Source: a virus
Length of the DNA: 64,000 bases
Virus record (IMG/VR): IMGVR_UViG_3300046163_000066
Location: 62,001-126,000 of that record
Direction: 5' to 3' (one strand)
The notes below the pieces were generated by a model that was given only the letters and a program-made list of their open reading frames with translations, was not told the DNA's origin and did no database searches. The stretch's first letter is position 1. Each line of letters begins with the position of its first letter. Of this stretch, positions 12,595 to 56,671 are shown one piece after another. The position numbers and the translations under genes are program-made.

Positions 12595-13965
12595 TCAACC
12601 ATACAAATCGTAAGAGCCTGATTCGTTGCTGGCGTATGAAAGATTCTTTTCACGGCCTACAATTTCACGCTGAGACTTGATGTGAGATAGAGCCATATCA
12701 AGATGACTTTGCATGATAACGGGTTCTTCGCAATAATCACATTCTTCGTGAGCCAACATGAATGCAGATTGAATGATTTCTTGTAGATAAGCACCCGAAA
12801 ACTTGTTGGTGTCTTTAGCAATACGGGTCAAATTGATTTTACCTGTTTTGAAAGGTGAAAGATACTTAGACAAAATGCTTTCACGAAGAGTTTCGTCAGG
12901 ATAACCGAAGTCCAAACGAACATCGAAACGGCCGGGTCGGTCTGTTAAAGCCCAATCCAACTTTTCTGGGTGGTTGGTGGTTGCCAAAGTTACAACACCG
13001 TGGTTGTCCTCAACACCTGCTAAACAGTTCAAAAACTCGCCCAGAACTGGATGGTCTGCATCTTCACGGGAAAGTCCACCGAGCGTGTCAATATCTTCCA
13101 GAATAACGACACAAGGCGACAAACGGCGGGCTACTTTGTAAAGTGAAGTAATTTGTCCCACATCAGAGATGGAATCACGGGCGACATAGATAACCGTAGC
13201 ATCCAATTGGTTAATCAGGACTTTACAAGTTAGAGTCTTGCCTGTTCCGGGTGGACCCGTTAGAAGAACACCTCGGCTACTGCGTAGTCCTTTGTTTTGG
13301 AACAAAGGCACGGATTCAATGAAACGAGTGAGGTTGCGGTCCAGAACGTGACGGTCTTCATCTTTGATAATGATAGCATCCCAATCCACATTGGGCGTTT
13401 CCAAAAACTTGTAAGAAGCATCGAAATGCGCTCCACGAAGCGAACCTTGCTCAAAGAAATAAGTTTCCATTTTAGAGTGGAACTCGGTGTAATCGAATTG
13501 GTCGCTACGGAACTGGGTAACTACATCTACTTCGTATTCATCATAAGGAGTAAAGGAAATCACAAATCGAGATTCAGGATTCTTTTGGTTTTCAACAAAC
13601 ATAATCAGTTTGTGTGGGACTTTGATAACTCGGTCTCCAACTTTTTCATCAAACCAAACGGGTGCAGTTTTGTTTTCACCGTGGTTGTAATTTTCAACTT
13701 TGACAATTTTCCACTCGGAGTCAATAACTCCCATCAACGATTCCATCCAGAAAACATAAGAACGGTCAATGTAAAACTTACGCTTGGACTCAATAGAATA
13801 TGTTTCCGAATCTTGTCCCAAACTGAGGAACTTTTCAATAGACTGGTCGGCTTTATCGGTTTTTCTGACTTGATTAGCCAGATAACTCAGGGCTTCACTT
13901 AGAGTTTCTAAAGGTGCAGTAATTGGGCCAATGGGTGTTTCGATTCGTAGTTCTTCAACTGCCAT
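12595..13965 (-). CDS. AAA+ ATPase (classical/Cdc48-Bcs1-like clade)
   Basis: 456 aa from M-A-V-E-E-L. An N-terminal ~215-residue alpha/beta domain is followed by one AAA module: Walker A G-P-P-G-T-G-K-T, Walker B V-V-I-L-E-D-I-D, sensor-1 A-T-T-N-H, and an Arg-finger region D-R-P-G-R-F-D. These place it with classical AAA proteins that remodel or unfold proteins. An upstream in-frame ATG adds 12 residues but overlaps the TATA box, so the ATG 27 nt from the box is chosen. The N-domain is not one I recognise, so the substrate is unknown. Neighbours are a glycosyltransferase and acidic proteins. Confidence 0.93.
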   Translation of the reverse strand: MAVEELRIETPIGPITAPLETLSEALSYLANQVRKTDKADQSIEKFLSLGQDSETYSIESKRKFYIDRSYVFWMESLMGVIDSEWKIVKVENYNHGENKTAPVWFDEKVGDRVIKVPHKLIMFVENQKNPESRFVISFTPYDEYEVDVVTQFRSDQFDYTEFHSKMETYFFEQGSLRGAHFDASYKFLETPNVDWDAIIIKDEDRHVLDRNLTRFIESVPLFQNKGLRSSRGVLLTGPPGTGKTLTCKVLINQLDATVIYVARDSISDVGQITSLYKVARRLSPCVVILEDIDTLGGLSREDADHPVLGEFLNCLAGVEDNHGVVTLATTNHPEKLDWALTDRPGRFDVRLDFGYPDETLRESILSKYLSPFKTGKINLTRIAKDTNKFSGAYLQEIIQSAFMLAHEECDYCEEPVIMQSHLDMALSHIKSQREIVGREKNLSYASNESGSYDLYG

Positions 13966-13987
13966 GAAACTTGTAAGGTAAATCACC

Positions 13988-13996
13988 AACTTAAAC
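13988..13996 (-). promoter_or_regulatory. TATA-like promoter, 27 nt from start at 13965
   Basis: GTTTAAGTT followed by GGTGAT. It sits inside the 3' end of the glycosyltransferase gene. Confidence 0.75.
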
Positions 13997-14941
13997 TTCA
14001 ACCTTCAGATTTAGTATTTCTAAATCATTGGATTTTTGGAATGCAATTTCACAGAGAAGGGTCCAACGCTCGGTGTCAATCCATGCTGGTCGGTCAGATT
14101 CTGAAAACCAATATGACTTGAGAGTTCGTGCATCGGCTTGACGTTGAAACTCGGCTTGAACTTCTTCAAAAGTTCGGTCATCAGCAGCACTACTTTGATG
14201 TCCCATTGTGGTGGTTTGCCAAGGTCCGCAACCGTGATAACCTGAAACAGCATCAACTTGATGCCCATAGAACAACTCTGTGCCTAAATTGGCATAGGTT
14301 GGCGCATATTGTAGGGGGTTTCCCGCCATGCGAATGAATAAATCAGTATCTTCTCCAATCTGAAGAGTTTCATCGTAGCCTCCAATGGCTTCATATCGAG
14401 AACGAAGCATAGCAGAATTACTGGGCATCAACGGATTTCCAAAACAAAAGAAGAAAGTTTCAGAAGGGTCAAGGATGTTTTGCCATTGAGGATACCAACC
14501 AATGACTCCTATCTTGGAATAAACCTCATCTGTTTTGAGAGATTGTAATTTGATTTCAGCATCAGCACCTGCCCACCAAAATGCCACAGGTAAGTGTTCA
14601 GATTGAGTGTGTTCAATGGCTTCAGCCATCCATTCCAAATGTTCTGGATACCACAAATCATCACCGTCTAAGGTCGCAATATACGGGCGATTTCCAGCAC
14701 CGATGGCTTGGTTGCGTGCTTGACTGACTCCTCGACCTGTTTGACGTAGCAAAGTGAAACGAGAATCAGAAAGGTAAGTATCGAAAGTTTTCATAATATC
14801 GGCGTAACCGTCGTAGTCTTCTGGAGTGCCGTCGCAGATATACACTTGATAATCTGTGAAAGTTTGCGATTGAATGCTGTCCAAACATTGAGTAATGAAC
14901 TCAGGTGAAACCTTGTAAGTGACAACGATGACATCAAACAT
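13991..14941 (-). CDS. Family 2 glycosyltransferase
   Basis: 316 aa. GT-A fold signature: N-terminal V-I-V-V-T-Y-K, S-I-Q-S-Q-T-F, I-C-D-G-T, G-V-S-Q-A-R-N, then L-D-G-D-D-L (the DXD metal/sugar-nucleotide motif) near residue 93. A later G-G-Y-D-E-T-L ... E-D-T-D-L-F segment matches the acceptor-side motif of GT2 enzymes. No TM, so it is a cytosolic enzyme transferring a sugar from a nucleotide donor. It may glycosylate virion or host surface proteins. Leaderless start. Confidence 0.93.
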   Translation of the reverse strand: MFDVIVVTYKVSPEFITQCLDSIQSQTFTDYQVYICDGTPEDYDGYADIMKTFDTYLSDSRFTLLRQTGRGVSQARNQAIGAGNRPYIATLDGDDLWYPEHLEWMAEAIEHTQSEHLPVAFWWAGADAEIKLQSLKTDEVYSKIGVIGWYPQWQNILDPSETFFFCFGNPLMPSNSAMLRSRYEAIGGYDETLQIGEDTDLFIRMAGNPLQYAPTYANLGTELFYGHQVDAVSGYHGCGPWQTTTMGHQSSAADDRTFEEVQAEFQRQADARTLKSYWFSESDRPAWIDTERWTLLCEIAFQKSNDLEILNLKVEV

Positions 14942-16167: not shown

Positions 16168-16274
16168 CCTGTCAGGCAGGGACTTCATCTGCAAGAGTCT
16201 TTCGACTCAATACTCTGTCCCAAGCCTAACGGCTCAGAGGTCTAAGACCAGTTCCTTGCTTATTGGGAAGCAAG
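16168..16274 (-). ncRNA. Structured intergenic RNA region (hairpin cluster)
   Basis: On the minus strand, hairpins follow each other: 16255-16274 (6 bp, across the upstream stop), 16239-16249 (GGTC/GACC), 16223-16234 (AGCC/GGCT), 16195-16208 (GAGTC-GAAA-GACTC, a GNRA tetraloop) nested inside a GGGAC/GTCCC helix (16179-16183 with 16217-16221), and 16168-16180 (CCTG/CAGG). No gene and no TATA box in this gap. It could be a 3' UTR, a terminator or a small RNA. Confidence 0.55.
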
Positions 16275-16889
16275 AAGGCTTCGCTTATACCAGTCCACGT
16301 TTCCGGGGTTGATGGAGATACCCATTTCCAACAACTTGTTGGCGATGAGTGCATCAGGTCCGTCGTAAAGAGTGTATTTCACGAAACATCGGAGTTCACC
16401 AGCAGCAGCAGTTAAACCAGCGAAAGCCTGTGTGTTGAAGAATGTCACGAGAACATCCCAAACTTGTCCGGGGAGAACATACACGTCAGGGTAGAGGTTG
16501 AACGAAGGCTGGAAGTCGATACTGCGAGGGTAAGGACTTGAAGTTCCGGGGATACCGTCGTTGGGGACGTTATCTGGGTCCAAGAAGTAGTCAGTTGTGT
16601 TGATACGGACTTGAACGTAGGCACGAGGTCCTGCGACACCCATAGCGACACCGTAGGTAAGACCACGTTGTGCAGTTGCGATTTGTGCATCGACACCAAT
16701 CGGTAGTGTTGGAGTAACAGCGATGTCTTCGATAACGACGAACTCTGTTGCAGAAGTTTCTGCGGGCTTTGTGATGTTGTTACCAACGCCACCAATGAAA
16801 ATTGATGTTCGCTTTCCTGCGCTTGTAGCAACAGTCATAGCAGTTCCACGGCTTGCATCCCAGTCATATACTTGGCTTCTCATACTCAT
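16260..16889 (-). CDS. Capsid/spike-family protein (jelly-roll-like paralogue)
   Basis: 209 aa from M-S-M-R-S-Q-V-Y-D-W. It carries all family marks: G-G-V-G-N-N-I-T-K-P-A-E-T, F-V-V-I-E-D, R-I-N-T-T-D-Y-F, Y-V-L-P-G-Q-V-W, D-G-P-D-A-L-I-A-N-K-L-L-E-M-G-I, V-D-W-Y-K-R. AGGTGA lies 5 nt before the ATG. It is very close to the next gene upstream (43-nt gap), so this is a second tandem pair. Probable major structural protein; the fold assignment is inference. Confidence 0.88.
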   Translation of the reverse strand: MSMRSQVYDWDASRGTAMTVATSAGKRTSIFIGGVGNNITKPAETSATEFVVIEDIAVTPTLPIGVDAQIATAQRGLTYGVAMGVAGPRAYVQVRINTTDYFLDPDNVPNDGIPGTSSPYPRSIDFQPSFNLYPDVYVLPGQVWDVLVTFFNTQAFAGLTAAAGELRCFVKYTLYDGPDALIANKLLEMGISINPGNVDWYKRSLLASQ

Positions 16890-16932: not shown

Positions 16933-17616
16933 TCAAGCCTGACCTCCGTTAGCAGCAGCAGCCGCAGCAGCCATTGAAGCCGAGCGTTGCTGTTGTTCGA
17001 TGAGGCTACGCTTATACCAATCCACGTTGTTAGGATTGATGGTAACACCAAGTTCAAGAAGTTTGTTTGCGATAAGAGCGTCAGGTCCGTCGTAAAGAGT
17101 GTATTTCACGAAAGCAGCAACGACTTCAGTTGAAGTAGCAGCAACACCGACACCAGTTGCGGTCTCTGGAGTGTAGAGAATCTGGAAGGTTTGACCGGGC
17201 AGAACATAAACGTCTGGGTAAAGGTCGAAAGACTTCAAGAGTTGGTCGCTGTTAAGAGGTTCAGCAGCGGAAAGGTCCACACTTGAGGGCGCACCACGAG
17301 GGTAAGGACTTGCCAGACCGGGGATACCGGCTTGGTCAGTAACGTCGGGGTTCTGGAAGTAATCTGTGGTGTTAATACGGATTTGGACAGCACCGCCAAG
17401 TTGTGGAGAACAAGCGATGTCCTCGATAACGATAAACTGGGTTGCAGTTGTCTCGGCTGGCTTGGTGATGTTGTTTCCAGTTCCACCAATAAACAAATCG
17501 TATTCACGACCTGCGGTCAGGGCTTTCGGGACATCGGCTGTGCTTCGGCGTAGAGCAGACGACACACCGACTGGTGCGAGGTTTGCCCATTCATATACTT
17601 GGCTTCTCATTGACAT
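16933..17616 (-). CDS. Capsid/spike-family protein (jelly-roll-like paralogue)
   Basis: 227 aa from M-S-M-R-S-Q-V-Y-E-W. Same motif order as the downstream paralogue, with an Ala-rich tail after V-D-W-Y-K-R. An AGGA-type site lies before the chosen ATG; a longer frame starts 19 codons upstream without support. It has the longest leader of the family (TATA centre 63 nt away), which may mark high or regulated expression. The two proteins share most motifs and could co-assemble. Confidence 0.88.
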   Translation of the reverse strand: MSMRSQVYEWANLAPVGVSSALRRSTADVPKALTAGREYDLFIGGTGNNITKPAETTATQFIVIEDIACSPQLGGAVQIRINTTDYFQNPDVTDQAGIPGLASPYPRGAPSSVDLSAAEPLNSDQLLKSFDLYPDVYVLPGQTFQILYTPETATGVGVAATSTEVVAAFVKYTLYDGPDALIANKLLELGVTINPNNVDWYKRSLIEQQQRSASMAAAAAAANGGQA

Positions 17617-30683: not shown

Positions 30684-31085
30684 TCATTGACTGGAAAGAA
30701 CATAGACCATGCCAAAGAGTCCCAATGCCACAGCAGTAGCACCGATTCCGAACTTGACACCTGTGGACATTCCTTCTGAGTAGTATTCAGATTCCATGCG
30801 GTCTTGTTCGCCTTGGTCCTGTCCGAAGTTTTCTCCGTCAGCATCTCCGCCAGCATCGTTTTGTCCAGCGTCAGCACCTTCGGGGTCGTTGCCAGCACCG
30901 ACGAATTGTTCATCTGTGGCTTCCTTTTGAGGTGCAACCATAGCAGTAACTGGAGTTGTCATGTGGCTCATGTTGGTCGTATCATAGGAACGTGTGGCTC
31001 CATAGTTTCCTTCCCACGGGTAAGAACCAACGGTGGTGTTCGGGTCTTCAATCAATGGTTCGCTAAATCCTGATTCTTGCATCAT
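30684..31085 (-). CDS. C-terminally anchored acidic protein
   Basis: 133 aa. An acidic Gly/Asp/Gln-rich stalk (E-G-A-D-A-G-Q) is followed by a TM helix at about 112-130. Matches the stalk-plus-TM layout of many neighbours. Confidence 0.82.
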   Translation of the reverse strand: MMQESGFSEPLIEDPNTTVGSYPWEGNYGATRSYDTTNMSHMTTPVTAMVAPQKEATDEQFVGAGNDPEGADAGQNDAGGDADGENFGQDQGEQDRMESEYYSEGMSTGVKFGIGATAVALGLFGMVYVLSSQ

Positions 31086-31119: not shown

Positions 31120-31128
31120 TACTTAAAG
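31120..31128 (-). promoter_or_regulatory. BRE/TATA promoter for gene starting at 31085
   Basis: CCGAAGT-CTTTAAGTA followed by TCAGAAC. 39 nt to the start, with AGGT in the leader. Confidence 0.8.
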
Positions 31129-31905
31129 ACTTCGGTGAATCAAACTATCGCAACCAGAGATACACCAATTAAGAATACCAAGTGTTTGCGGAGCCAAATC
31201 TCCTGTGGGGATAGCATACGGCTCTAAAAATCGAAGTGGGATGTAGTATTGGTTGTCATGTCCTTGCGGATAAGAATTGAAATGGTCGTGAACCACGGCA
31301 TTACAACGGTGAGAAAAATTGTAAGTGGGTTCTGACTGAGGTTGAACAACGTATCCGACTCCGTATTTTGATTTGATAACTTTGCCATGATTTTCATTAA
31401 AGTGTGGAGTGTTGAAAACCAATGGGCCAAGGTCATTGAAAGAATTGACTAATCCTGTGGGTTTAACAAAAGCACCACGAGGTTGCATCAAGGCTACAAA
31501 TTGAAATCGGTTCAACAATCGAAATTGAACTCCTGTAAGTGGGCAATCGCCGGCAAGTTCTGGCACAGTTTTGTTGTGGAGTTCATCAATGACAACCCAT
31601 TTTTGGAACTTATGTGTGCCGTGTGCCAGTTTTGCGGTGCTGAAAATCTGGTCATTGGTTAAATGACACAGTTCTCCATTGGGGGCTATGGCTCGCCAAT
31701 CATGGGTTCGACGATGTGAGGGTCCAATGATAAACCAAATAGGAACTTGAAGGTCTGTGATGTGTTGCAGGGCGGTTTCACCCCAACGATGTAGAAAAAT
31801 AGAAGGTGGTGTAGAAAAATGTTCCAAAGCCACAGGTGAACCAGATTTACGCAAAGCAATAACAAGGTCTTCGGAACGGATGATTCCTTGACCCATCTGA
31901 TACAT
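31123..31905 (-). CDS. Degenerate P-loop-ATPase-like partner of the HerA gene
   Basis: 260 aa from M-Y-Q-M-G-Q-G, chosen because the TATA centre is 27 nt away; seven codons of in-frame sequence upstream run into the box. It has a Walker-B-like strand W-V-V-I-D-E-L-H-N and, ~45 residues on, V-A-L-M-Q-P-R-G-A-F-V, the spacing seen in the adjacent HerA-like ATPase. Where a P-loop is expected there is only I-I-G-P-S-H-R-R-T. Possibly an inactive ATPase subunit or another fold. It follows the HerA gene by 39 nt. Confidence 0.78.
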   Translation of the reverse strand: MYQMGQGIIRSEDLVIALRKSGSPVALEHFSTPPSIFLHRWGETALQHITDLQVPIWFIIGPSHRRTHDWRAIAPNGELCHLTNDQIFSTAKLAHGTHKFQKWVVIDELHNKTVPELAGDCPLTGVQFRLLNRFQFVALMQPRGAFVKPTGLVNSFNDLGPLVFNTPHFNENHGKVIKSKYGVGYVVQPQSEPTYNFSHRCNAVVHDHFNSYPQGHDNQYYIPLRFLEPYAIPTGDLAPQTLGILNWCISGCDSLIHRSL

Positions 31906-31927
31906 AGGTTGTGTAAGGCCAATCACT

Positions 31928-31936
31928 TACTTAAAC
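31928..31936 (-). promoter_or_regulatory. TATA-like promoter, 27 nt from start at 31905
   Basis: GTTTAAGTA followed by AGTGAT. Confidence 0.75.
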
Positions 31937-31943
31937 AATGTGT

Positions 31944-33224
31944 TTATCGAATACGCAAACCACGCATTACAACTAACAAAAGTGCGGAAGTCAAAGCCGT
32001 GCCACCGATAGCAGCCACAGGCACCCAACGATGTGAAGACCCTGATGGTGGGGAATAAGTTTCCCAATCTTCCAGAGAAGTTTCAAGAGATTCGGAATCG
32101 TAAGGGTCGTATTCAAACTGAGGAAGTGAAGGTTGCCAATCATCATAAGTTTTCATTTCAGAAGAAAAGTCCGAAACTTGTGGTGAGGTGTCCAAAGGAT
32201 TAACTTGGATTTCTGGAATAACTGGATTCGGAGGACTCTGAGGATTCAAAGGAGAACTATGACGAGCGAAACTTTCGGCATCAGAAATGCTACCGATAGC
32301 ATCGGCAGGAATTGGAGTTTCACCATCGAACAAATCTCCAGAACTTTCGGGTGTGGCATTGTCACCAATTAAACTTTGAACATCAATGTTGTTTCCTGTG
32401 TGTTCGGTTTGTCGGTCTCCACGGATTTTATCAATCACAATGTAGCCTCGGTCTCGGAAAAACTCTGGTGCGTAAGCGACACATTCACCTTTGCGAGCCG
32501 ACGAAATACCGTTCAAGATTTTCTTGATGAGTCGTTTATCAGTTCCAAAAGACAGTTGCTCATCGAGAGTTTTCAAATCTCGGTTGTTAATGACGTTGTG
32601 AACCAGATAAACTGAAGCCTGTGATAAGGCTTCTTTGTTCACACCTGCGGGTCGCTGGGAAACCAGCGTAGCACCGTAGCCTAATGCACGACCCAGTTTG
32701 CACAATCGAACAATTGGGTCAAACGAAATAGGTCGGCCAACTTGAGGGATAAAATCTTGACACTCTTCAAAAATTGTGTGCAATCCTTTACCGATGCGAG
32801 CCTCAATAAGTGCTTCGCAGTAATCTCCGATAAGTTCTTGTTGCTTGGTAAGGCTAAGACCACCCATTTTGATAACCAAAGACTTGTCCGTGGTTTTTAA
32901 TCTTTGAACGAGACTTTTCATATCAATACTTTGACCTTCTTCGGGTTTGATGGATTCTACACGGGGCATTTGGTCTAAGCCACCGTGAGCATCAAGAGCA
33001 TCGAAACAAACGAACTGAAGTCCAAGTCGGTGAAACTCTTCCATCATTACACCAGCAGTAAATGACTTTCCTGAGCCACGCTTGCCGGTGATAAACAAAA
33101 CATTTGAAATTAAACTGTCTTCTCCGTATGCTGGAAATCTCAATTTACGCCCCAAACAAATCTCGGTGGGTGTTGGAAACGCTTCAGCCTGACGTGCAGG
33201 TGATGAGGCAACAGGAGCATCCAT
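31944..33224 (-). CDS. HerA/FtsK-superfamily ATPase, membrane-anchored
   Basis: 426 aa from M-D-A-P-V-A. Walker A G-K-R-G-S-G-K-S (about residues 46-53), Walker B H-T-I-F-E-E-C-Q-D near 150, then S-Q-R-P-A-G-V, the order of HerA/VirB4-type ATPases. A long acidic linker with D-A-E-S-F-A and a C-terminal TM helix (about 404-420) ending R-G-L-R-I-R follow. In archaeal membrane viruses such ATPases package genomes; a DNA-transfer ATPase is the alternative. The fused tail with TM is unusual. Confidence 0.9.
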   Translation of the reverse strand: MDAPVASSPARQAEAFPTPTEICLGRKLRFPAYGEDSLISNVLFITGKRGSGKSFTAGVMMEEFHRLGLQFVCFDALDAHGGLDQMPRVESIKPEEGQSIDMKSLVQRLKTTDKSLVIKMGGLSLTKQQELIGDYCEALIEARIGKGLHTIFEECQDFIPQVGRPISFDPIVRLCKLGRALGYGATLVSQRPAGVNKEALSQASVYLVHNVINNRDLKTLDEQLSFGTDKRLIKKILNGISSARKGECVAYAPEFFRDRGYIVIDKIRGDRQTEHTGNNIDVQSLIGDNATPESSGDLFDGETPIPADAIGSISDAESFARHSSPLNPQSPPNPVIPEIQVNPLDTSPQVSDFSSEMKTYDDWQPSLPQFEYDPYDSESLETSLEDWETYSPPSGSSHRWVPVAAIGGTALTSALLLVVMRGLRIR

Positions 33225-33261: not shown

Positions 33262-34425
33262 TCAATCGTCTGGGTCCTCGTGTCCAATGTCTTCAAAGTA
33301 TTCGACGACATCTTCAAACTCTTGTGAAATACCTGCAAAAATCTTACCAATCTCTGTAAATAGCCAACCCATTTGGTCCCACAAATCTTCAATGAGTTCA
33401 CCTGTTTCTGGGTCAATCATACGAGGGTCTGGGAACTTCCAAACGAACTTCTTAGCAATTTCACGAGGATAACCGTAAAGGTCCATTAAACTGTTTTCAA
33501 CTCTTTTACAGTATTTATCCATTGTGGCTTGTTCACCTGCATCACGAAGAATGATGTAGAAAACTTTGTTGAGTGCGTTTTGACTTCGGAACCAATTATC
33601 GAAACTTTTGCCTCCAGATACTGAACTGCTTTCTGTTAAGGGTCCATCGAGATTGTCACCGTCAGTAATGAAAACAGTAATACTTCCACCAATGTCGTGT
33701 TTTTTGGTATTTTCAATCATAATTTCAAAAGCATTGGCTTCGTTGTTGTCTCCATCAGGAACGATGGCATCCAAAGCATTGACGATGTTGTTAGTGGGTG
33801 TGTCCCATGCACTTATTTTTCCACCCATTTCAATAGGATTCCAAAGTTGTTTGACTCCATCGCCAGTTAAGAAATCTACTGCTTCGTCATAATCAAAACT
33901 GGGTTCACCTGCGGGCAACGGCCAAACAATTTTACCTGTGCCGTTGTAAGAATAAACCACGAAACTATCCAGATTCAATTTGGCTTGTGAAATAAGATTG
34001 GCAGTTGCTAAACGACAAACCAATCCTCGATGAAGGCTGTTGCCTTCGTAAGTAGTAGCAGTTCGGCGCATAGAACCTGACTGGTCAATCATAATGTTGT
34101 AGTGCGTGTTGAAACCTTTAGTGCCGACTTGTGTTTCAATGTCTTTACGACGTAGAGGAAGTCCAATAAAGGCAGGGTTAGGTGCAAATCGGTCAGCCAA
34201 TGTTTGACTCATTCCCATTTCAGGAGACCATTGAGTGGTTGCCACAGGTTCTAAAGGATTGATTTTAGCAGGAGGCATCCGAAGATATTTGGCTTTAATT
34301 TTGTCGAATAAATCACGTAGTAAAGGTTTCAAAGGAACTGGTGAAGAATCAACTATCGGAATGCTTCGGCTTTGTGCAAATGTAAATGGGTTATCAGCCC
34401 ATCCGTCGCTTTGATAATCACTCAT
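33262..34425 (-). CDS. VWA-domain protein (MIDAS intact)
   Basis: 387 aa. The VWA domain runs from about residue 105 to 310: MIDAS D-Q-S-G-S-M near 114, a Thr-rich loop, and V-F-I-T-D-G-D-N (second Asp) near 250. No signal peptide or TM. In MoxR systems the VWA partner binds substrate or target through its metal site. It is translationally coupled (overlap) to the zinc-ribbon gene upstream and completes the module with the metallopeptidase and MoxR genes. Confidence 0.92.
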   Translation of the reverse strand: MSDYQSDGWADNPFTFAQSRSIPIVDSSPVPLKPLLRDLFDKIKAKYLRMPPAKINPLEPVATTQWSPEMGMSQTLADRFAPNPAFIGLPLRRKDIETQVGTKGFNTHYNIMIDQSGSMRRTATTYEGNSLHRGLVCRLATANLISQAKLNLDSFVVYSYNGTGKIVWPLPAGEPSFDYDEAVDFLTGDGVKQLWNPIEMGGKISAWDTPTNNIVNALDAIVPDGDNNEANAFEIMIENTKKHDIGGSITVFITDGDNLDGPLTESSSVSGGKSFDNWFRSQNALNKVFYIILRDAGEQATMDKYCKRVENSLMDLYGYPREIAKKFVWKFPDPRMIDPETGELIEDLWDQMGWLFTEIGKIFAGISQEFEDVVEYFEDIGHEDPDD

Positions 34426-37223: not shown

Positions 37224-38564
37224 TTAATTTCCTGTATGTTGTAAGTGCATATCCCATGCAGTATCGTAAAGCCATGCTTCTCCAGCGGCCACACCTGTCT
37301 TGCCACCATAACCTGTGGGGCTGGTAGCATAAAGACCGGCAATTAAATTGTTGAGCAATTGAGCATACAACTTACTTCGCTCGGCTTGATTCATAGTGCG
37401 TGGGTCGTATTCCATAATGTCTTTCATGTAAGGCTTGTAACCGAAACCTAACTCAAATTGACTGGGCGCAGGTTCACCACAATGAGGGCAAAGGCTGATA
37501 CAATAATGGGCTGGAATCCAACGAGGTGTGCCGTTGTAATCAATTTGCCAAAACTCAATAGGTCGAAGTTCTTTGGTATCAATAATTTTGTCATAAGTTC
37601 GAGAGGACAAAACTGTGTAAGTTCCAGCGACGATTTGACCTTCGCTATTGGTTGCGCCTCCAGTTAGAGGACAAGTTCCGGGCGTTGGGTTATATCCCAA
37701 CCATTTATCTGCGTTAGAAGAGTATTCGATATTAACGGTGGCTTTGACTTGAATCTGTTTCCAATTGTCGGGGAAATCTTGAGTTGTGGTGGACAATCCC
37801 ATGCCGGGACCCATATCTGTGCCAACAGGCATTTTATGTGCCACAGCCCATGCTGCGGAAGGATAATACTGAGGTCCTCGACCATGACCTTGCCATCTTT
37901 CAAAAGTAGGAGTTTCGTCGGAAGGTGTAAAACCATCCTCAGTTGCTGGGTTCGTGTAGCGACCCTCATTGAAACGGTTATCTACTAACTGACCTCTTTC
38001 TAAAAGACTACGGTGTGCGTTTTGTCCTGCAAAACCACCGCTTCCATCATAACAAGTTCGGAAACCTCCTGCATAAGCAGACCACATAGCCGAGTTCATG
38101 TTTTGTGAATCTTTCTCTTTAGATGAACTTTCAACCAATTGCACACCATTAGCAGCCGTGTAATTGACGATAACATCTGAAAAGACATTAGCCCAACGTC
38201 CTCGACGACTTCTTTCTAAGGGCAAACCTTTGATTTCCTCTTCCCAACCATAACTGACGTGTGGGTGAATGTTTAGGTGTCCAATTTCGTGTTGGATAAC
38301 GAACAACAAATCTTCAGAAACACGTTCTTCGGTGTAGCCATGATAATTTTCAGGAAGGGCGTGAGCCAAATAATCTCCAGACAGAGAAATGTATTCCATA
38401 TTGGTGTAGGCTTCGTGCTGTGCTGTGGGAACAACTACTAACTTGTTATCAATACCATTAGCCTTTCTAAGTTCGCTTAGGATTTTTTTGAATCCGTCAG
38501 TAACATTCCCTTCGGCTGGTCTCTCATACCAACCTTTCGGTTTGGTCATCTCATCGTCAGCCAT
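37224..38564 (-). CDS. Zincin metallopeptidase (DUF2201-like)
   Basis: 446 aa. Active-site H-E-I-G-H at about residues 92-96, followed ~40 residues later by W-A-N-V-F-S-D-V-I-V-N-Y. That arrangement matches the predicted metallopeptidases that partner VWA domains and MoxR ATPases in bacteria and archaea. Here peptidase and VWA are separate genes. A C-terminal Cys pair (C-P-H-C) near 368 may bind zinc. Leaderless start. Confidence 0.88.
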   Translation of the reverse strand: MADDEMTKPKGWYERPAEGNVTDGFKKILSELRKANGIDNKLVVVPTAQHEAYTNMEYISLSGDYLAHALPENYHGYTEERVSEDLLFVIQHEIGHLNIHPHVSYGWEEEIKGLPLERSRRGRWANVFSDVIVNYTAANGVQLVESSSKEKDSQNMNSAMWSAYAGGFRTCYDGSGGFAGQNAHRSLLERGQLVDNRFNEGRYTNPATEDGFTPSDETPTFERWQGHGRGPQYYPSAAWAVAHKMPVGTDMGPGMGLSTTTQDFPDNWKQIQVKATVNIEYSSNADKWLGYNPTPGTCPLTGGATNSEGQIVAGTYTVLSSRTYDKIIDTKELRPIEFWQIDYNGTPRWIPAHYCISLCPHCGEPAPSQFELGFGYKPYMKDIMEYDPRTMNQAERSKLYAQLLNNLIAGLYATSPTGYGGKTGVAAGEAWLYDTAWDMHLQHTGN

Positions 38565-38599: not shown

Positions 38600-41500
38600 T
38601 TAAGGAACTCGAATGCTAACCGTAGTTGCCTCATTGAACACCAATTGGTAATGCAACGAATCAATCAATGAAATGTTTCCAGAGTCTTTGACTCCATCTC
38701 CGACAGTTCCTGTGTAACTGGAAGGTGAATAAACCGAGGGTTCAGTAATTGGCACGAAGTTTTTGCCAGAAATTAAGTTGGAAGTTACACCCATCGTCAA
38801 GTTGAGGGTCGCAAATCCGCCAGACATTTCGCTCATAAAGAATCGAACCCAAAGTCGAAGGTTGTCATCGCCGTCATAATCGGTTTGTCCTGTGGGTGAG
38901 CCAGCAGCATGGTTAAGTGGGAAACAAGCCATGATTCCATCTTGTCCGAGGTTTCCTGAAAGGTCTTCAAAAGTTTCGTTTCCTCCAGTTCTGGCTTCGT
39001 CGAACTTGGTAGCATCACGGTTGGTATAACCGTTAGCCCATCCAACTACTCCTTTCATAAAATCATTGAAATCTATGTTTGAAATACTGTCTTCGTTGCC
39101 TTCAACATTGTCGATTTTAACTCCGCCTCCTCCGATGGAAGTTGCGAAGGCAGTTTGTAGTTTCGTTAGTTGGTCCACGAAGTTATCTCGTGACAAAGAA
39201 CCTGCTCCACCCTTGCCTCTCTTAGAAGTAATTTCACGGATTGGCAAACGGGCTGAAACCATCAAGGCTTGGTCAGCAAAAGAGGAGGCGTAAGACATAC
39301 CCTTCATTTGATTTTCGCTGAATCTGTCACCTGCGACTTGTCCACCAGTTCCAGTATTGCCCGGTGCTTGAAGCATACGACCCCATGCACCGATAGAATC
39401 TTGATAAGTGCGCCATTGGAAACTGTCGGTGGCGTTGTCGAAACCTCTGCCAACTAAGCCACTCCAAGTGTCTTTTTGTTTTCCAATCGCAATTCGGTTA
39501 GCAATTCCTTTATCTTTCACTCTAACGGGTCCACCACAAATTGGAGCCATGTTAGAATCTAACAAGGAAAGTAGTGTATCTCGGTCATCGGAAAACAAGT
39601 TCGGTTCTGAACAAATGTCGCCACGAAGTTGATAGTAATCAAACAGAACTTGTGCTGAAGTATCTTTTTCAGGATTCGGGTCGTAAGAAACACGACTCAA
39701 ATAGTTGTTGTAATTTTCGGTGTAATCGCTGGCAGAACCATAAGTTCGGGTAGGCTTTGTAGCGGAATCAGGAGTGTTAAGAGCCGCACGTTCATTTTCA
39801 ATAACCATTGTAGCAATATGCCAATGAACAGGTGTAAAGTTGGCTCCGGCTGCTCCTTTCATCATAGCGGAACGAAGTGGAACTAAAACAGTTTTCTCAT
39901 AAGTCCAAAGGTTTGGGGCTGAACGAAGAACATCCATACAGCGTCGGTAGAACAAATCCCAAACATCGAGTAGTGGGTATCCGCCAGAAGAAACACCAAT
40001 CTCGGTGTTTTGTAGCAAGTAACCATTGACAATGGCTTCACGAATCCATTCTTGTTCGTTGTTGTAATTGAGTTCATCTCCCTTCATACCAGAGATTTCA
40101 CCTTTGCTACTTTTAGCACGTCCCAATCGGTGAGCCGTCACATAAGGCAAAGCATCGAGAATCTCGCTGCGGGTAACATACGACTTTCCTCGCAAGAATG
40201 CCAAAGCCGCCGAAAGTTTCTGAAGTGAGTTGGTGAAACGGAAACCAAGAACACGCCCAATATCGCTGGGTGCGTGATTTTCGTAAGTTTTACCCTTTTC
40301 TCGGTCTGGTCGGATTTTGCTACCTCCTTCTTCATTGGTGTTGGTAGTAATGGAGAAATCCATCAAGGGTGAGGCATAAAGATAATCGGAAGATTTAGGT
40401 TGTAGGTCTGTGCCACCTGCTGCAAACAGACCGGTGTTCAAAGGTTGGAATCTTTGGGTGAACAACACAGAAATGTAAGACATTTCTCGAAGTGCGTCGT
40501 AAGTAGAACTGCCAACAGTTTGACCGGGTGGGGCGTAACCAATGTCTTTGCCTACAAAGTTCCAAACTGAAGCCAATTCGTTGAAACGTAGAGGTTCAAT
40601 TTGTCCTTGAATGGCTTTAACAACCAATCGCTCTTGTGGGGGTCCACCGCCACCGAGAACTTTGCCTGAAAGTTGTTCATATCTGGCACCCGAGAGAAAT
40701 TGACTTAAACAGCAATTCCATGTCAATACGGTCAATGAAAGCAAGGTCGTTTCCTTTTTGGTGAGGGTTGGTATCCATCCAAGCAACGAAAGATGGTGAA
40801 TCGAAACTTCGGCCACGGTATTCTACTTTTCGCTCGGCAATTAGACCCAGAACAGCGTCTTCGACACCAGCCTGTGAACGGTTGGCTTCGTTGAAGAACT
40901 TAACAGGTTGGGTAACGATAGGTCGTGGAACTGGCTCGAACTCGTAAGTTGATTCTTCCACACCACGCAATTCATTTTGTTTGGTGGCTTGACGGATTTC
41001 AATACCGTAAAGAACTTCGTCAGCACGCTTTTCGTAGTCAATCTTAGCCACACCGATTTCACGAAGCATTTCTTCAAGAATACTCTTGGTGTCGTTGTAT
41101 TTTCCACCAGACCCTTGAGCATTTGACATCCAATCAGCACGCAAGTCATAGAAATGTTCCATCAAAAAAGCACGGAAGTTGTAGCCTTCGTTACGACCTG
41201 CATCTGTGTAGAGACCATGACCTGCAACAAGGTAATCTTTGAGATTGTCACGAGCGTATCCACCTGAACCGGGTCGGTCTTCAACAATGTTTCGGTAATT
41301 TTGAGTGGGTTCAGGAGTGTCAGCGTTGTAAGCAGGGAATTGCAGACCCATTGTGTAAGTGAGTTTAACATCTCCAGTAGAATCTGTAACTGTGTATTCA
41401 CGAGTATTCTTGAAAACAAACTCTCCCTTTTCATTCAGGATTTGAATAGGTGCCACAGCCATTTCTACTTCATTGTCTGGCAAAAGTTTCAGAATATCTG

Positions 41501-42464
41501 AGGTAGTCAAATCTTCGTTATCTGGGTCTGGATGATTGAAACCTTGAATGGGAACTTTAGCAACGTAGCAGTTGGTAAGTAAGTAGTAGTAATCTTCAAT
41601 AGACATAGGATTCTTGTTGAAGGAATCACCTTTGCTGTTCTTGGCATTAGCGTGCAAGAAAGAAGTGTCATAAAGATAAGAACCTGAAACTTGGGAATCT
41701 TCAGTCCAGCGAGTAAATCGCCACTTGTTCCAGTTGTCACGAACTGCAAAGTAAGCATCGTTAGAGTAATCAATAGCATAGTTTTGACCAGCAGGGAACT
41801 CTTTGGGAACATACGGTTGGTTGAAACGAGCCTCGTCGTTGTAGGTTTTACCTTCAGAAACAACAAATCGCTTTTTTCCAGAGTGTCCGTAAGAGTTGCA
41901 CAACAAAACTGCTGCGCTTTCGATAACAGTAGTTTTACCTGTGCCGGGAATACCAGACAATCGGCAAGTAGAATCTTTCATCAACCATGCGGCTGTGAAC
42001 ATTTCAAGGTGTTCGTAAGTATCGAAACCGAAAACTTCACCGAGATTGGTCATACTGGTTTGAATCTTCTTGAGTTGTCGCTCATGCGCTTTCTTGTTTT
42101 GAGTAAGTTTGGTAAGTTTCAACTTGGCTTCAAAGATTTTTCCTAAAGCAGCACCCAATGTGGCTGGCAATCCTTTACTCATTACTGTGTCATCATAAAC
42201 TGCCGAAACTTCGTAACCACCGTAAGAAGATTCTTCCAAATCTAAATCAAGGTCAATTACATCTCCTTCATCGTCAAGAACTACAAAGTTTAAGGGTCCA
42301 CGATTGACACCTGAGAAAACTTCTACGCTACCGAGAGTTTCATCAATTTCTTCAAGAGTTACCATGTCTGCCAAACTGCGACCACTACTGGAAGCCACTT
42401 CCTTAAGAACTGCCATGCCTTCTTTACCAATAAGTTCTTCCAATTGTTCTTCGAGAGTCGTCAT
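38600..42464 (-). CDS. MoxR-type AAA+ ATPase, long, split by a +1 frameshift
   Basis: N-terminal frame (42464 to 40677) holds Walker A G-I-P-G-T-G-K-T-T, F-F-N-E-A-N-R at the Walker-B position (Asn replaces the usual Asp of D-E-I-N-R), sensor M-D-T-N-P and I-D-R-I-D-M. It stops soon after F-K-S-I-S-L-G. Skipping one G of GGG near 40690 continues as G-A-R-Y-E-Q-L-S-G in the 38600 frame, which contains the expected MoxR lid (F-L-R-G-K-S-Y-V-T ... L-P-Y-V-T-A-H-R-L) plus ~450 further residues. Span is 3n+1. A large insertion (about 210-440) lies between Walker A and B. Partner of VWA and zincin. Confidence 0.87.
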
Positions 42465-51092: not shown

Positions 51093-51260
51093 TCATTCTT
51101 CAGAGTCTATATCTTTATTGAAACGATACTTCCAAACAGCCAATTCTGTCAGCAATTTGTTACGCCATAACACCCAGCGAACAAAATAAATGCTAAGTGT
51201 GCCTTGTAAGGCCACAACACAAGCCAACAAAACCAACAAAGCCCATTCCCAATCAATCAT
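51093..51260 (-). CDS. Small single-TM protein coupled to ArsA-like gene
   Basis: 55 aa. TM helix about 5-27, then a basic/aromatic segment (R-W-V-L-W-R-N-K) and an acidic end. Its ATG overlaps the stop of the ArsA/Get3-like gene by 8 nt, so the two are translationally coupled. A tail-anchored or signal-anchored client of that ATPase is a reasonable guess. Confidence 0.75.
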   Translation of the reverse strand: MIDWEWALLVLLACVVALQGTLSIYFVRWVLWRNKLLTELAVWKYRFNKDIDSEE

Positions 51261-52446
51261 CCGAATCCGCCTCTGGTTTCCAAGTCAAAACTACGGTGTC
51301 TTTTTGCTTGCGACGTGAAATCTTGACATCGGGCAACTCCGAAAGTTCATAAACAAAATTACCAACTGTTGCATCTGAACCGCCATAATAAAACTCTCGA
51401 TTGTTTCGACTCCACTTCGCAGAAGTGATATACGGTGTGCGAATAACGCCTTTACCTTCAGAAATGTTGAAAGATTCAAAGGTTTCAAAGCGAAGTCCTC
51501 GTTCATTCCAAAGAGTCTCTGCAACTTCGGTGAGTCGTGAACCACGAGGTTCAAATGGTAATCGAGTCATGCCAACAATTCGGATAGATGTTTCGGATGA
51601 AAGTGTCCGAAACTTTCCAAGATATGGCTGTTGGATTTGCCACTCATTGTGGAGCAAGGCAGCCGCAGGATTATTTACCGCAGTAGCCCAAACATCCTCT
51701 CCAAAGTTAGGAATAATTTGATTGATAACAATGTGATTTACAGGAATCTTCATGCTATCCATAAATCGGACAGTTCGAGCGCACTCAGCATAACCCGCTT
51801 CGGTGGGAATAGAAACCAAATTGATGCTAACGTATTCAGGATTGCGTAGCAAGGCTTTGAGTCGCTCAATTCGCTTGATGAAATCCTCCATCAGAGCCAC
51901 AAGTTTGGATGTATCTCCCTTTTTGATAAAGAAACCTTTGAGATTTTCAATCTTGGCTTTCATCCGAAGAATCTTGAGAAGAAATGTATTGAGATAATCT
52001 GGGGCTGAAAGGGCTTTGAGAGTGTGTCCTGTGGGAGCAGTATCAAAAACAATTAAGTCATAATCTGTGCCAGCACACAATCGGTTGATTTCTTCTAAAG
52101 CAAAGGCTTCATCCATCCCCGGAAACTTAGAAAGTTCGGATAACATTGAGGAATCGAAACCGGGCAAACTTCCGAAAGATTTTTCCATAAGGGTTTCAAT
52201 CTGACCGAAAAAATCGCCGGCAAGGGCTTCGGCATTCAAGTTTTTAGCCCACAAATTAGAGACTCCAGTAACTGGTGTGGCCTCGAATCCGACTCGGATG
52301 CCGAGAGTATCATCGGTGCTGTGGGCTGGGTCGGAAGAAACCAAAAGAGTTCTGAGACCTTGTTGAGCGTGGTGCAAAGCCGTCGCAGCCGACACAGTAG
52401 ATTTACCAACACCACCTTTTCCTGTGAATAATAACATCTGTGCCAT
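51253..52446 (-). CDS. ArsA/Get3-family ATPase
   Basis: 397 aa, single ATPase domain. P-loop G-K-G-G-V-G-K-S-T at 9-17, switch I D-P-A-H-S near 38-42, switch II D-T-A-P-T-G-H-T near 134-141. Archaeal single-domain members bind TM segments of tail-anchored proteins (Get3 role); two-domain ArsA pump arsenite. With so many small and C-terminally anchored membrane proteins here, the targeting role is more likely. No zinc CxxC seen. Confidence 0.92.
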   Translation of the reverse strand: MAQMLLFTGKGGVGKSTVSAATALHHAQQGLRTLLVSSDPAHSTDDTLGIRVGFEATPVTGVSNLWAKNLNAEALAGDFFGQIETLMEKSFGSLPGFDSSMLSELSKFPGMDEAFALEEINRLCAGTDYDLIVFDTAPTGHTLKALSAPDYLNTFLLKILRMKAKIENLKGFFIKKGDTSKLVALMEDFIKRIERLKALLRNPEYVSINLVSIPTEAGYAECARTVRFMDSMKIPVNHIVINQIIPNFGEDVWATAVNNPAAALLHNEWQIQQPYLGKFRTLSSETSIRIVGMTRLPFEPRGSRLTEVAETLWNERGLRFETFESFNISEGKGVIRTPYITSAKWSRNNREFYYGGSDATVGNFVYELSELPDVKISRRKQKDTVVLTWKPEADSDD

Positions 52447-52982: not shown

Positions 52983-55811
52983 TCATGCGTCAGAATCACG
53001 CTTTTTATCGGATTTTGATTTCTGGATACTGGAATGTTTCTTTGATTTGTTTCCTGAAATCGGGGCTGATTCGGATGGGGCTGGAACAAAGGTTTCGGAT
53101 GCCTTATCCAAAGCCTCCAAAGAATCGAACCCTGTGGTTTCTTGGAAATCCCCAGCCAGAGTATCTTCTAAACCTTCACGCCATGCGGCTTGTTGGCGAC
53201 GACGTGTGCGAAGGCGACCTTGACGCTCCTTTAGTTTAAGAGTTTCACGATATTCTTCTTGCTGTGAGCGAACCCAATCCTCAATTTCTTCAGGTGTGAT
53301 TCCCAATTTGCCTGATTTGAGAATCTTGGCTTTATACCATTCGACGTTTTCAACTGTAACTCGGAGTCCCATACTTTGTAATTCTTTAGCAATCATAGAA
53401 TCTACACCATCAAACAACAGATAATCAACCCAAACACGGGCTTCACGACCTGTGGTTCCCTGAATGATATACGGTTGGAATCCTGTGACTGAAATTGTAT
53501 TGTTGCCGAGTGTGGTTTCCACAGTTAGTGATTTAATGGCCGCTTGACCCTTACTTGTGGTATCAACTTCCCCACCAAACAACACCAAACCATCCAAAAA
53601 TGGAGTCATATTGCGAGAAATGTATAAACTGCTTTTAGCATCGGAATCAATTCCTACAAACTGGTCGGTTTGGTCGAGATATGCAACTTGCGTAGGAGGT
53701 TGTCGGTCGAAAGCAGAATTACAAGAAACAAGACTACCTCCTGTGGTATCTGCAAACGTAAAAATCCATTGGTCTCTGTCAGCATCCCATCGGGCAGAAA
53801 CTGGTCGGCGGGTGGTTGAACTGCCACCATCAATAGCGTTATTGAGAGATTGTCCAACTGAAATTAGGTCAATAGGCTGGGGTGGGTTCGGAGGAAAACC
53901 CAGAACAAACTTAGGTGGATTCTGATTGGTAATGCCCATAGTGAGTGTTCCAAAATCATACATGAAAATCACGGGTCCGACACCTGTGGAATATCCCAAA
54001 AATCCATAAGCGATGTTAGCAGGAAAACCAACTGGTAATTCATTTTTGTTAGAAGTTCCATATTGATAATAATTCGGAGACTGACTCGGAACTAAGAAAT
54101 TGAGTGGGTCTGGTTGAAGCCCTCCAAGTGTGGGGTCTCTTTCAAGTAAGACCTCCAATTCACGGTCTGCATAAGATTGATAATCCAGCATATCGGCTGT
54201 GGCTCGTTCTGGGTCTGCCAACTGAACCTCATACACATCTAACTGTTTAGCGACGGCTTCATCTTGGCGACTGTAAGTTGCTTGTTGAACTGCTTTACCC
54301 AACCATTTTTCTGGAAGTGTGAATCCGGTGGCTGTTTCAAAACCACCACCCTTGACAGCGAAAGGAAATATCGCTTCAGATTTTGTTGGCCGAAAGTTTG
54401 GAGCCCCTAAATCAAAAGCACCTAAACAATACTGCCAGTTAGCAACATAGATTTCAGTAGAGGTTGTGGCTCCATGTGTGACGTTATCAATACCAATAGT
54501 AACAGAGGTAATGAATGGGTCTGGACTTTCTGAGAAAGTTGGCATAATAACCGTGCCATAAGCACCGTTAAGATTGTAAGCAGGTAATGAACCATCGAGA
54601 CCCCAATTTTTGTTGCCTAATGCGGTGTAAAGTTGATTTAGTCCTGTGCCAGCAGGTGGTGGTTCAGTATCTGGTTGCCAAAATCCAACGAAAGGCGTTG
54701 TGAAACTTACTCCACCTGCCCCATCATCAGCGATGGCCTCTCCAGTTAGATTCATACACATAGTTGTAGCAGTTCCATCGCCAGTCAAATCTGCAAGAGT
54801 CATAGGGAAGGGTCCACCGTTGGTAACAACAAGGTCATGGATTCGACTGATGTAATACCCGTTGTCAATTGTAGTAAGTTCTGGAAAGTTGTATGTGAGA
54901 TACGGAGAAGCGGTGGTGTTGATACCACAAGCCTCATCTTCAATGGCTTTAGCATTTGGTTTGAGAGGCGAAACTCCGGGCAAATATCTGCCGATGTGGT
55001 TGGCTTGGTCTCCTTTCCAAGAAGCGGTAAAACTGAGACCAGCCTCAAAAAATATACCTGTATATGGAGTTTGGGCTTGCTTACCACCGGGAACCGCAGC
55101 AATAGTTGAAATCACAAAAGAGGTCTCAAGGATGAAGGTCAATTTACTTATCCAACCAGAGTAATTTTGTGATGTCGTCATCCCTTCAGAAGCAGCAATT
55201 CTTTGATGACCTGCTGCATAAACAACCAATTCTGGTTTTCCACCAGTAACAGGACCAAACTTAGCCACATCTACTGCATAAACTCCGGGTGTGCTATCCG
55301 AACCAAGACCTGTCAAATCAGGCTCTACTTCGTAGGGCATCCGACAAAGATAGGTGAAAAAGGCATTTTCAATGGAACTAAACGGTTGGTCAAGAAATTG
55401 TCCTTCAATAATCCCCGGTGTAACCCAAAACTTTCGGCGGTCATTAGCGTAACCTTCAGGTTCGGGGATGGGAACATCAGGGGGTGCTACCATACCAATG
55501 TTGTGCGCTCGAACAAAAGTTATGAAACCATCCCAAGCCCATGCTCCAGTCCCGCCATTAAGTTCTCCAAAAAAGGCACGATAACTTCCTGTAATAATGT
55601 AGAAATCATTGGCATAAGTGGTGCTTCTGATAATAACATCAAACTCTGAATAATCTGTATCAGCAAAACTGGGAATCCGAATGTCGCCGTTGCTTCGATT
55701 GTCACCACCAGCATTAAAAAGATTGGTATCTCCAAGTGTCAGAACTTGGTCCCATGCAAAAAAATGCGGATTAGGAAACTTTTTGGTGTCTAAATCGTAA
55801 GCCAATCCCAA
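52983..55811 (-). CDS. Giant capsid/spike-family protein (942 aa)
   Basis: Probably a TTG start (CAGGAG 9 nt upstream, same context as the TTG at 7285). About 800 residues of beta-rich, Thr/Gly/Pro-rich sequence without Cys clusters precede the family's C-terminal signature: L-L-F-D-G-V-D-S-M-I-A-K-E-L, V-E-N-V-E-W-Y-K. A long basic/acidic helical tail follows, ending K-K-R-D-S-D-A. It looks like a large spike or penton-like protein that plugs into the lattice through the shared domain. Directly follows a family member lacking that C-terminal part. Confidence 0.85.
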   Translation of the reverse strand: MGLAYDLDTKKFPNPHFFAWDQVLTLGDTNLFNAGGDNRSNGDIRIPSFADTDYSEFDVIIRSTTYANDFYIITGSYRAFFGELNGGTGAWAWDGFITFVRAHNIGMVAPPDVPIPEPEGYANDRRKFWVTPGIIEGQFLDQPFSSIENAFFTYLCRMPYEVEPDLTGLGSDSTPGVYAVDVAKFGPVTGGKPELVVYAAGHQRIAASEGMTTSQNYSGWISKLTFILETSFVISTIAAVPGGKQAQTPYTGIFFEAGLSFTASWKGDQANHIGRYLPGVSPLKPNAKAIEDEACGINTTASPYLTYNFPELTTIDNGYYISRIHDLVVTNGGPFPMTLADLTGDGTATTMCMNLTGEAIADDGAGGVSFTTPFVGFWQPDTEPPPAGTGLNQLYTALGNKNWGLDGSLPAYNLNGAYGTVIMPTFSESPDPFITSVTIGIDNVTHGATTSTEIYVANWQYCLGAFDLGAPNFRPTKSEAIFPFAVKGGGFETATGFTLPEKWLGKAVQQATYSRQDEAVAKQLDVYEVQLADPERATADMLDYQSYADRELEVLLERDPTLGGLQPDPLNFLVPSQSPNYYQYGTSNKNELPVGFPANIAYGFLGYSTGVGPVIFMYDFGTLTMGITNQNPPKFVLGFPPNPPQPIDLISVGQSLNNAIDGGSSTTRRPVSARWDADRDQWIFTFADTTGGSLVSCNSAFDRQPPTQVAYLDQTDQFVGIDSDAKSSLYISRNMTPFLDGLVLFGGEVDTTSKGQAAIKSLTVETTLGNNTISVTGFQPYIIQGTTGREARVWVDYLLFDGVDSMIAKELQSMGLRVTVENVEWYKAKILKSGKLGITPEEIEDWVRSQQEEYRETLKLKERQGRLRTRRRQQAAWREGLEDTLAGDFQETTGFDSLEALDKASETFVPAPSESAPISGNKSKKHSSIQKSKSDKKRDSDA

Positions 55812-55815
55812 AGTT

Positions 55816-56307
55816 TCACACTCCTGTTGTTTCCCACTCAAAAAAGTCTTGAGGGTCTGTGGGGAAATCCTCAATGGGTTCAACTAAAGCGTTAGAAATA
55901 AAATAAGTGACGTTCCAGTTCGTTCCGGGTGGAATCTCAATTGGAATCCAATTTTGAAGAACTGGAGAAGCAGAAGATGAAATCGGATATGGGGCTGCTG
56001 TGCCTGACATCCCTTGTGCATCTCGACCATCAAGAGTTTGATAGTAAGCCGTGGATTCTACCACGATGTTCACGAAACCACCGGGTTTCCAGTTGTTAGC
56101 CAAACCGTAAATGCCGGGAGTGCTACCAATGTATTGAAGAACCAAAAACTCATCGCCCTTTGTTGTTAAACGATTGGTAATGGTGGCAGTTCCAATTTTA
56201 GAATAGAACACAGATTGAGGGCGATTTTCCAAAAGTTCTATGTCTTTCGGTGGTAGATTGCCGAGGTCGGCTACAACCCATTGAAAACCTTGACGACGAA
56301 CTGACAT
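55816..56307 (-). CDS. Truncated capsid/spike-family paralogue
   Basis: 163 aa from M-S-V-R-R-Q-G-F-Q-W. It has the N-terminal and middle family motifs (F-L-V-L-Q-Y, Y-Y-Q-T-L-D) but ends before the D-G-P-D-x-L-I and W-Y-K-R block. That block appears at the end of the next gene. GGAGGA precedes the ATG. Either a genuine short form or the front half of a split protein. Confidence 0.82.
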   Translation of the reverse strand: MSVRRQGFQWVVADLGNLPPKDIELLENRPQSVFYSKIGTATITNRLTTKGDEFLVLQYIGSTPGIYGLANNWKPGGFVNIVVESTAYYQTLDGRDAQGMSGTAAPYPISSSASPVLQNWIPIEIPPGTNWNVTYFISNALVEPIEDFPTDPQDFFEWETTGV

Positions 56308-56311
56308 TGAA

Positions 56312-56671
56312 TCAATCCTCCAAACCGTAAGCACGGCGTAATTGTTTTCTAATCTTTTCTAATTCCTCTTCGGCATTGTTAAGCAAACGAGATTGGTTGC
56401 CTTGAATGTTGCGTCGAATCGGGTCGGCTTCAGGAATAAGTGTGGGAGCAGAACCTTCGGGGCGGATTTGTGAAACCCAATCTGGAGTTCCAGATGGATG
56501 AGCAATTTCGGAAGGTGTAACTTTCGGCTCTGGAGTTCGTTGTCGTTGAGTGGGGTCTGCACGTTTTCGTGTGTCTTGAAGACCTGTGCGTTCACCTTGC
56601 GCTTGGCGACGAAGTTTATCTCTGGCTTGTTGAGCCGCAACAGCCTTTTTCAAACTGTCGTCAGAGTCCAT
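56312..56671 (-). CDS. Basic, Pro/Arg-rich helical protein
   Basis: 119 aa, strongly charged, with Arg/Gln-rich helices at both ends and a Pro-rich middle. Leads the operon of the two family proteins. Possible capsid-binding or DNA-binding peptide. Confidence 0.8.
   Translation of the reverse strand: MDSDDSLKKAVAAQQARDKLRRQAQGERTGLQDTRKRADPTQRQRTPEPKVTPSEIAHPSGTPDWVSQIRPEGSAPTLIPEADPIRRNIQGNQSRLLNNAEEELEKIRKQLRRAYGLED

Follow-up and report, generated by a model that had tools for sequence, protein, structure and literature searches.

A HerA/FtsK-type ATPase with a conserved C-terminal tail anchor in an uncharacterised lineage of large, probably tailless viruses

The nearest annotated relatives of the ATPase described here are those of SH1, HHIV-2 and HCIV-1 (Sphaerolipoviridae, Halopanivirales, Singelaviria). 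Halopanivirales have internal membranes (PMC5332951), and the realm Singelaviria was created for the single-jelly-roll capsid type (PMC12714852). In PRD1, the ATPase P9 is located together with P6 outside the membrane, and P20 and P22 constitute the membrane conduit (PMC4267777). SH1, HHIV-2 and HCIV-1 have two paired single-jelly-roll capsid proteins, and the reference genomes of the SH1 group are about 17-31 kb in size. The same ATPase core is found in cellular HerA, FtsK and VirD4; HerA is a soluble protein whose partner is NurA, and FtsK and VirD4 are membrane-anchored translocases whose anchors are N-terminal.

We analysed a window of 64,000 nucleotides corresponding to positions 62001-126000 of the 166,176-base virus record IMGVR_UViG_3300046163_000066 (G000 in the comparisons), focusing on two adjoining minus-strand ORFs at 31123-33224. 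Orthologues of the ATPase encoded there were found in four relatives, G001 (160 kb), G002 (a 61-kb contig), G003 (150 kb) and G004 (123 kb), giving five viruses for comparison (G000-G004); a further record, L037, is almost a duplicate of G003 in the region of the ATPase gene. G002 (L004, PBOB01000001.1) is binned in an Acidiferrobacteraceae MAG and is a virus of the same lineage; it may be mis-binned or a pointer to the host. The locus and its surroundings contain the following features.

31944..33224, minus strand: HerA/FtsK-type, putative packaging ATPase, 426 aa, recognised by motifs, profiles and orthologues
Residues about 281-398 of the ATPase: acidic linker, 23 D/E versus 2 K/R in 118 residues
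Residues 401-419 of the ATPase: C-terminal transmembrane (TM) tail anchor, a 19-residue hydrophobic helix with a hydropathy of 2.06
31123..31926, minus strand: soluble, fast-evolving protein, 267 aa, encoded after the ATPase gene and, by sequence, not a paralogue of it
30684..31085, minus strand: tail-anchored protein, 133 aa, with a single C-terminal TM, the next gene after that for the 267-aa protein; homologues in two relatives
33262..34425, minus strand: vWA-like protein, 387 aa, with a MIDAS-like DQSGS motif and a Pfam match below cut-off
37224-38564, minus strand: 446-aa protein with a HEIGH (HExxH) motif, same-position homologues in three relatives and no Pfam match
38600..42464, minus strand: MoxR-like AAA+ protein, in two frames in this record, with the change near 40606-40683

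The 426-aa protein (counted from an ATG; 429 aa if an upstream GTG is used) is, by its sequence, a real HerA/FtsK-type ATPase. It contains the P-loop GKRGSGKS, and Walker A, an hhhEE Walker B (E153-E154), an arginine finger GR (GR179) and a QRP sensor region (Q190-R191-P192) are invariant in the five viruses, whose orthologues are 72% (G001), 52-53% (G002), 48% (G003) and 46% (G004) identical to it. The EE in place of the usual DE in Walker B is unusual, yet kept in all five. HerA structures are its best PDB matches, its DUF87/HerA match falls just below the Pfam cut-off, and it matches phrog_2666 'terminase large subunit' (E 1.7e-13). A tblastn search against 50,697 phage records returned only the packaging ATPases of SH1, HHIV-2 and HCIV-1, with ~26% identity over the core and a common pattern of Walker A, GR and SQRP. 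Profile comparison (hhalign) of the ATPase family likewise gave 93% over 179 columns for the SH1 ATPase, 84% for that of P23-77 in the P-loop region only, and a weak 4.9% for PR772 P9. The phrog_2666, tblastn and hhalign results therefore place the protein with packaging ATPases of sphaerolipovirus type, suggesting that it is the virus's DNA-packaging motor. Two sets of distant matches were set aside: L038-L040, high-GC contigs encoding proteins of 620-707 aa in which the C-terminal region is extended and dissimilar, belong to another family, and L005 (Calditenuaceae) encodes a cellular-type HerA.

The orthologues are 394-433 aa long, compared with 240 aa in SH1-type viruses, and carry an acidic linker and a C-terminal TM helix. 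The helix is present in all five viruses (hydropathies 2.06, 2.10, 2.03, 2.24 and 1.55, the last, from G004, being slightly below the hydropathy threshold) and is preceded by an acidic linker of 86-125 residues; it is therefore a real, conserved feature of the lineage. By the same hydropathy comparison, no C-terminal TM helix is present in the ATPases of SH1, P23-77 or PR772. A hydrophobic segment in PM2 P9 (94-112) was considered as a possible tail anchor but is the core strand that carries Walker B. The first-pass annotation had described a HerA-like, packaging-type ATPase ending in an acidic linker and a TM helix, and both parts of that description are borne out; it gave no strand for the two genes, both of which lie on the minus strand.

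Gene order around the ATPase is conserved as a syntenic block comprising the vWA-like, HExxH and MoxR-like genes and genes for tail-anchored proteins. Four of the five viruses have the vWA-like gene upstream of that for the ATPase, in one case with a small ORF in between. The 446-aa HExxH protein is possibly a metalloprotease. The MoxR-like gene is a single intact ORF in G001 and G002 (1281-1325 aa), and its split in the present record is either a sequencing error or a real frameshift.

Candidate capsid genes lie elsewhere in the window.

16933..17616, minus strand: candidate major capsid protein 1, with a jelly-roll-like model, trimmed to a conserved start (ORF call to 17673)
16260..16889, minus strand: candidate major capsid protein 2, an adjacent paralogue, trimmed to a conserved start (ORF call to 16898)
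3187-3948 and 3948-4646, minus strand: a further pair of neighbouring genes from the capsid-candidate family

This family consists of paralogues of about 210-275 aa, with a side-by-side pair in 5/5 viruses; one candidate is 75-81% identical among its orthologues in G000-G002. The paired arrangement recalls that of SH1, HHIV-2 and HCIV-1, but the candidates have no sequence similarity to the capsid proteins of those viruses. A structural model of one candidate is beta-rich and of moderate confidence (pLDDT 68.6). The SPV1 virion structure is its best PDB match, though a weak one (E 1.6e-3, probability 1.00, TM 0.32-0.40); P23-77 VP17 is also among the matches, none of which has an E below 0.001. 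The family also has partial matches near 55816-56334 and within a protein of 966 aa (52983-55883). We also observed an AAA protein at 12595-14001 (minus strand; PF00004, 1.7e-23) adjoining a family-2 glycosyltransferase at 13991-14941 (minus strand); a comparable arrangement of two genes is found next to the capsid pair of L018 (G003). Terminase (PF03237), HK97 capsid (PF05065) and portal (PF04860) were not found in four virus records, which may be incomplete, and this is consistent with, and no proof of, a tailless icosahedral virion with an internal membrane. Family-B polymerase (PF00136) was likewise not found in the four records. The ATPase and the genes for TM-tailed proteins probably belong to an uncharacterised, tailless virus lineage of ~120-166 kb. 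No description of such a lineage was found in the literature searched, the coverage of which largely excluded subscription papers and bioRxiv.

An internal membrane is suggested by the TM-rich, structural-looking genes. Proteins with a single C-terminal TM account for 7 of the 74 window genes and for 2/20, 4/19, 5/24 and 1/12 genes at the loci of the relatives, compared with 0/53 in T4 (50 kb), 0/14 in an SH1 stretch, 0/26 in P23-77 and 1/24 in PR772; these counts derive from a simple hydropathy rule and mechanical ORF calls, and the related genomes are not independent. The window also encodes an ArsA/Get3-family ATPase.

51253..52446, minus strand: ArsA/Get3-family ATPase, 397 aa (PF02374, E 2.3e-59)

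Get3 delivers tail-anchored proteins in eukaryotes (PMC10248533). One ArsA/Get3-family ATPase is present in each of four virus records (L041-L044; PF02374, 202-213 bits), and similar sequences occur in only 7 of 50,697 phage records. The viral protein shares the ATPase domain of Get3/ArsA ATPases, its PDB matches being archaeal ArsA/Get3-type structures (about 1e-38), and bears a divergent C-terminal extension. The CxxC zinc motif is absent from all four viral proteins, as it is from Get3d and plant Get3a (PMC10248533). It is possible that the viral ATPase is a targeting factor for tail-anchored proteins, and as such it may be linked to the tail-anchored motor.

The explanation that we favour, and consider probable, is that the ATPase is the packaging motor of a large, tailless lineage, probably with an internal membrane, that is related to the Halopanivirales by its ATPase, that this motor anchors itself, and that the 267-aa neighbour is not a second ATPase. 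As P9 does in PRD1, an ATPase ring would sit outside the viral membrane vesicle, on its cytosolic face, and ATP hydrolysis by the ring would pump dsDNA inward through one special vertex. A tail anchor would leave the N-terminal domain of the ATPase in the cytosol, that is on the outer side of the virion membrane vesicle, which is the right side for inward pumping. Every subunit carries its own linker and tail anchor, so the motor would hold itself on the membrane. PRD1 (PR772) is similar in that its HerA/FtsK-type motor lies on the outside of an internal membrane (a position we infer for the present ATPase) and that small single-TM proteins are encoded nearby; it differs in that P9 lacks a TM helix and depends on P20/P22, whereas the present motor carries the anchor within its own chain. 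The fused tail may thus replace or supplement separate small membrane proteins such as P20/P22, and the 133-aa tail-anchored protein, encoded two genes downstream of the ATPase, is a candidate conduit partner. We advance only tentatively the broader proposal of a new 120-166 kb, tailless, internal-membrane, single-jelly-roll lineage in which the virus's own Get3-like ATPase would deliver the tail-anchored motor and other tail-anchored virion proteins.

The TM tail is real, and the cellular relatives FtsK and VirD4 are membrane-anchored, so the protein could instead be a translocase of their kind, serving DNA ejection or transport at the host membrane while another protein packages the genome. 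This appears unlikely given that the nearest viral relatives are packaging ATPases, that terminase was not found in the four records, and that the anchor is C-terminal here but N-terminal in FtsK and VirD4. Conservation of the TM helix is silent on which membrane it enters, and the ATPase might package DNA into a virion lacking an internal membrane, its tail serving only during assembly, to hold the motor on the cytoplasmic membrane of the host. We consider this quite improbable, since the same operon block encodes many single-TM or tail-anchored proteins, as in membrane-containing tailless viruses, and since the related Halopanivirales have internal membranes.

The first-pass annotation had further proposed that the gene adjoining the ATPase encodes an inactive, P-loop-less relative (260 aa when counted from an ATG that is codon 8 of a 267-aa ORF starting at GTG), forming an active/inactive pair with it at a membrane vertex. 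The motifs behind this proposal are real as letters: in the protein, VVIDEL begins at residue 111 and QPRG at residue 148, the VIDEL strand and QPRG being about 37 residues apart, and it has no P-loop. Homologues are encoded directly after the ATPase gene in three of the four other viruses, G001 (279 aa), G003 (342 aa) and G002 (329 aa, recognised by its position and a shared SKxGxG...NA region, with a pairwise E of about 0.01). In these three the VVIDE position reads VHLDL, MPIDV or LLLDK and QPRG is missing, and the look-alike reading fails because both motifs are absent from the relatives. The pair of VIDE and QPRG arises in 0.9% of shuffles of the protein and is present in 3 of 77 window genes, in keeping with a chance occurrence. 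In hhalign comparisons the 267-aa family scored 0.2% against the ATPase-family profile and 0.1-0.2% against the ATPases of SH1, P23-77 and PR772; in the positive controls, the ATPase profile scored 93% against SH1, and still 64-78% against SH1 deprived of its P-loop end. BLASTP between the 267-aa protein and the 426-aa ATPase gave an E of 0.15, and searches of Pfam, PHROG, PDB and phage records (tblastn) with the protein or its profile returned no matches. In G004 no homologue was found in the record, the ATPase gene being followed directly by the next conserved gene. An AlphaFold2 model built from four sequences was unusable (pLDDT 39.3, pTM 0.25), which leaves a small probability of a strongly diverged RecA fold.

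The family thus has neither a conserved Walker B or QxR remnant nor profile similarity to the ATPase family, and the two adjoining proteins have no detectable similarity to one another. A degenerate HerA paralogue in an active/inactive hetero-ring with the 426-aa ATPase at a membrane vertex, suggested by the spaced motifs, the adjoining gene and the missing P-loop, is therefore highly improbable: the motifs are private to one virus and within reach of chance, the profile scores are close to zero and the gene was not found in G004. We reject with high confidence, at the level of sequence, the view that the 267-aa protein is an inactive ATPase copy; of the proposed pair, what stands is a membrane-tailed ATPase that is probably located at a membrane-bearing vertex. 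Most likely the 267-aa protein is a minor component of the virion or an accessory factor, encoded in the same assembly operon as the ATPase. Its fast divergence (32% identity in G001 versus 69% and 49% for the adjoining genes) fits a host- or partner-specific role.

What makes the locus interesting is the tail-anchored motor, together with the large and unusual virus lineage that encodes it, rather than a pairing of the ATPase with its 267-aa neighbour. If the favoured explanation is correct, the Halopanivirales-type virion plan would extend about five-fold in genome size, from reference records of about 17-31 kb to the records of 123-166 kb compared here, and the packaging motor would dock on the membrane through a tail anchor fused to it, in place of distinct membrane proteins. 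That an ArsA/Get3-family ATPase regularly accompanies the motor would in turn provide a testable link between the targeting of tail-anchored proteins and the assembly of the virion membrane.
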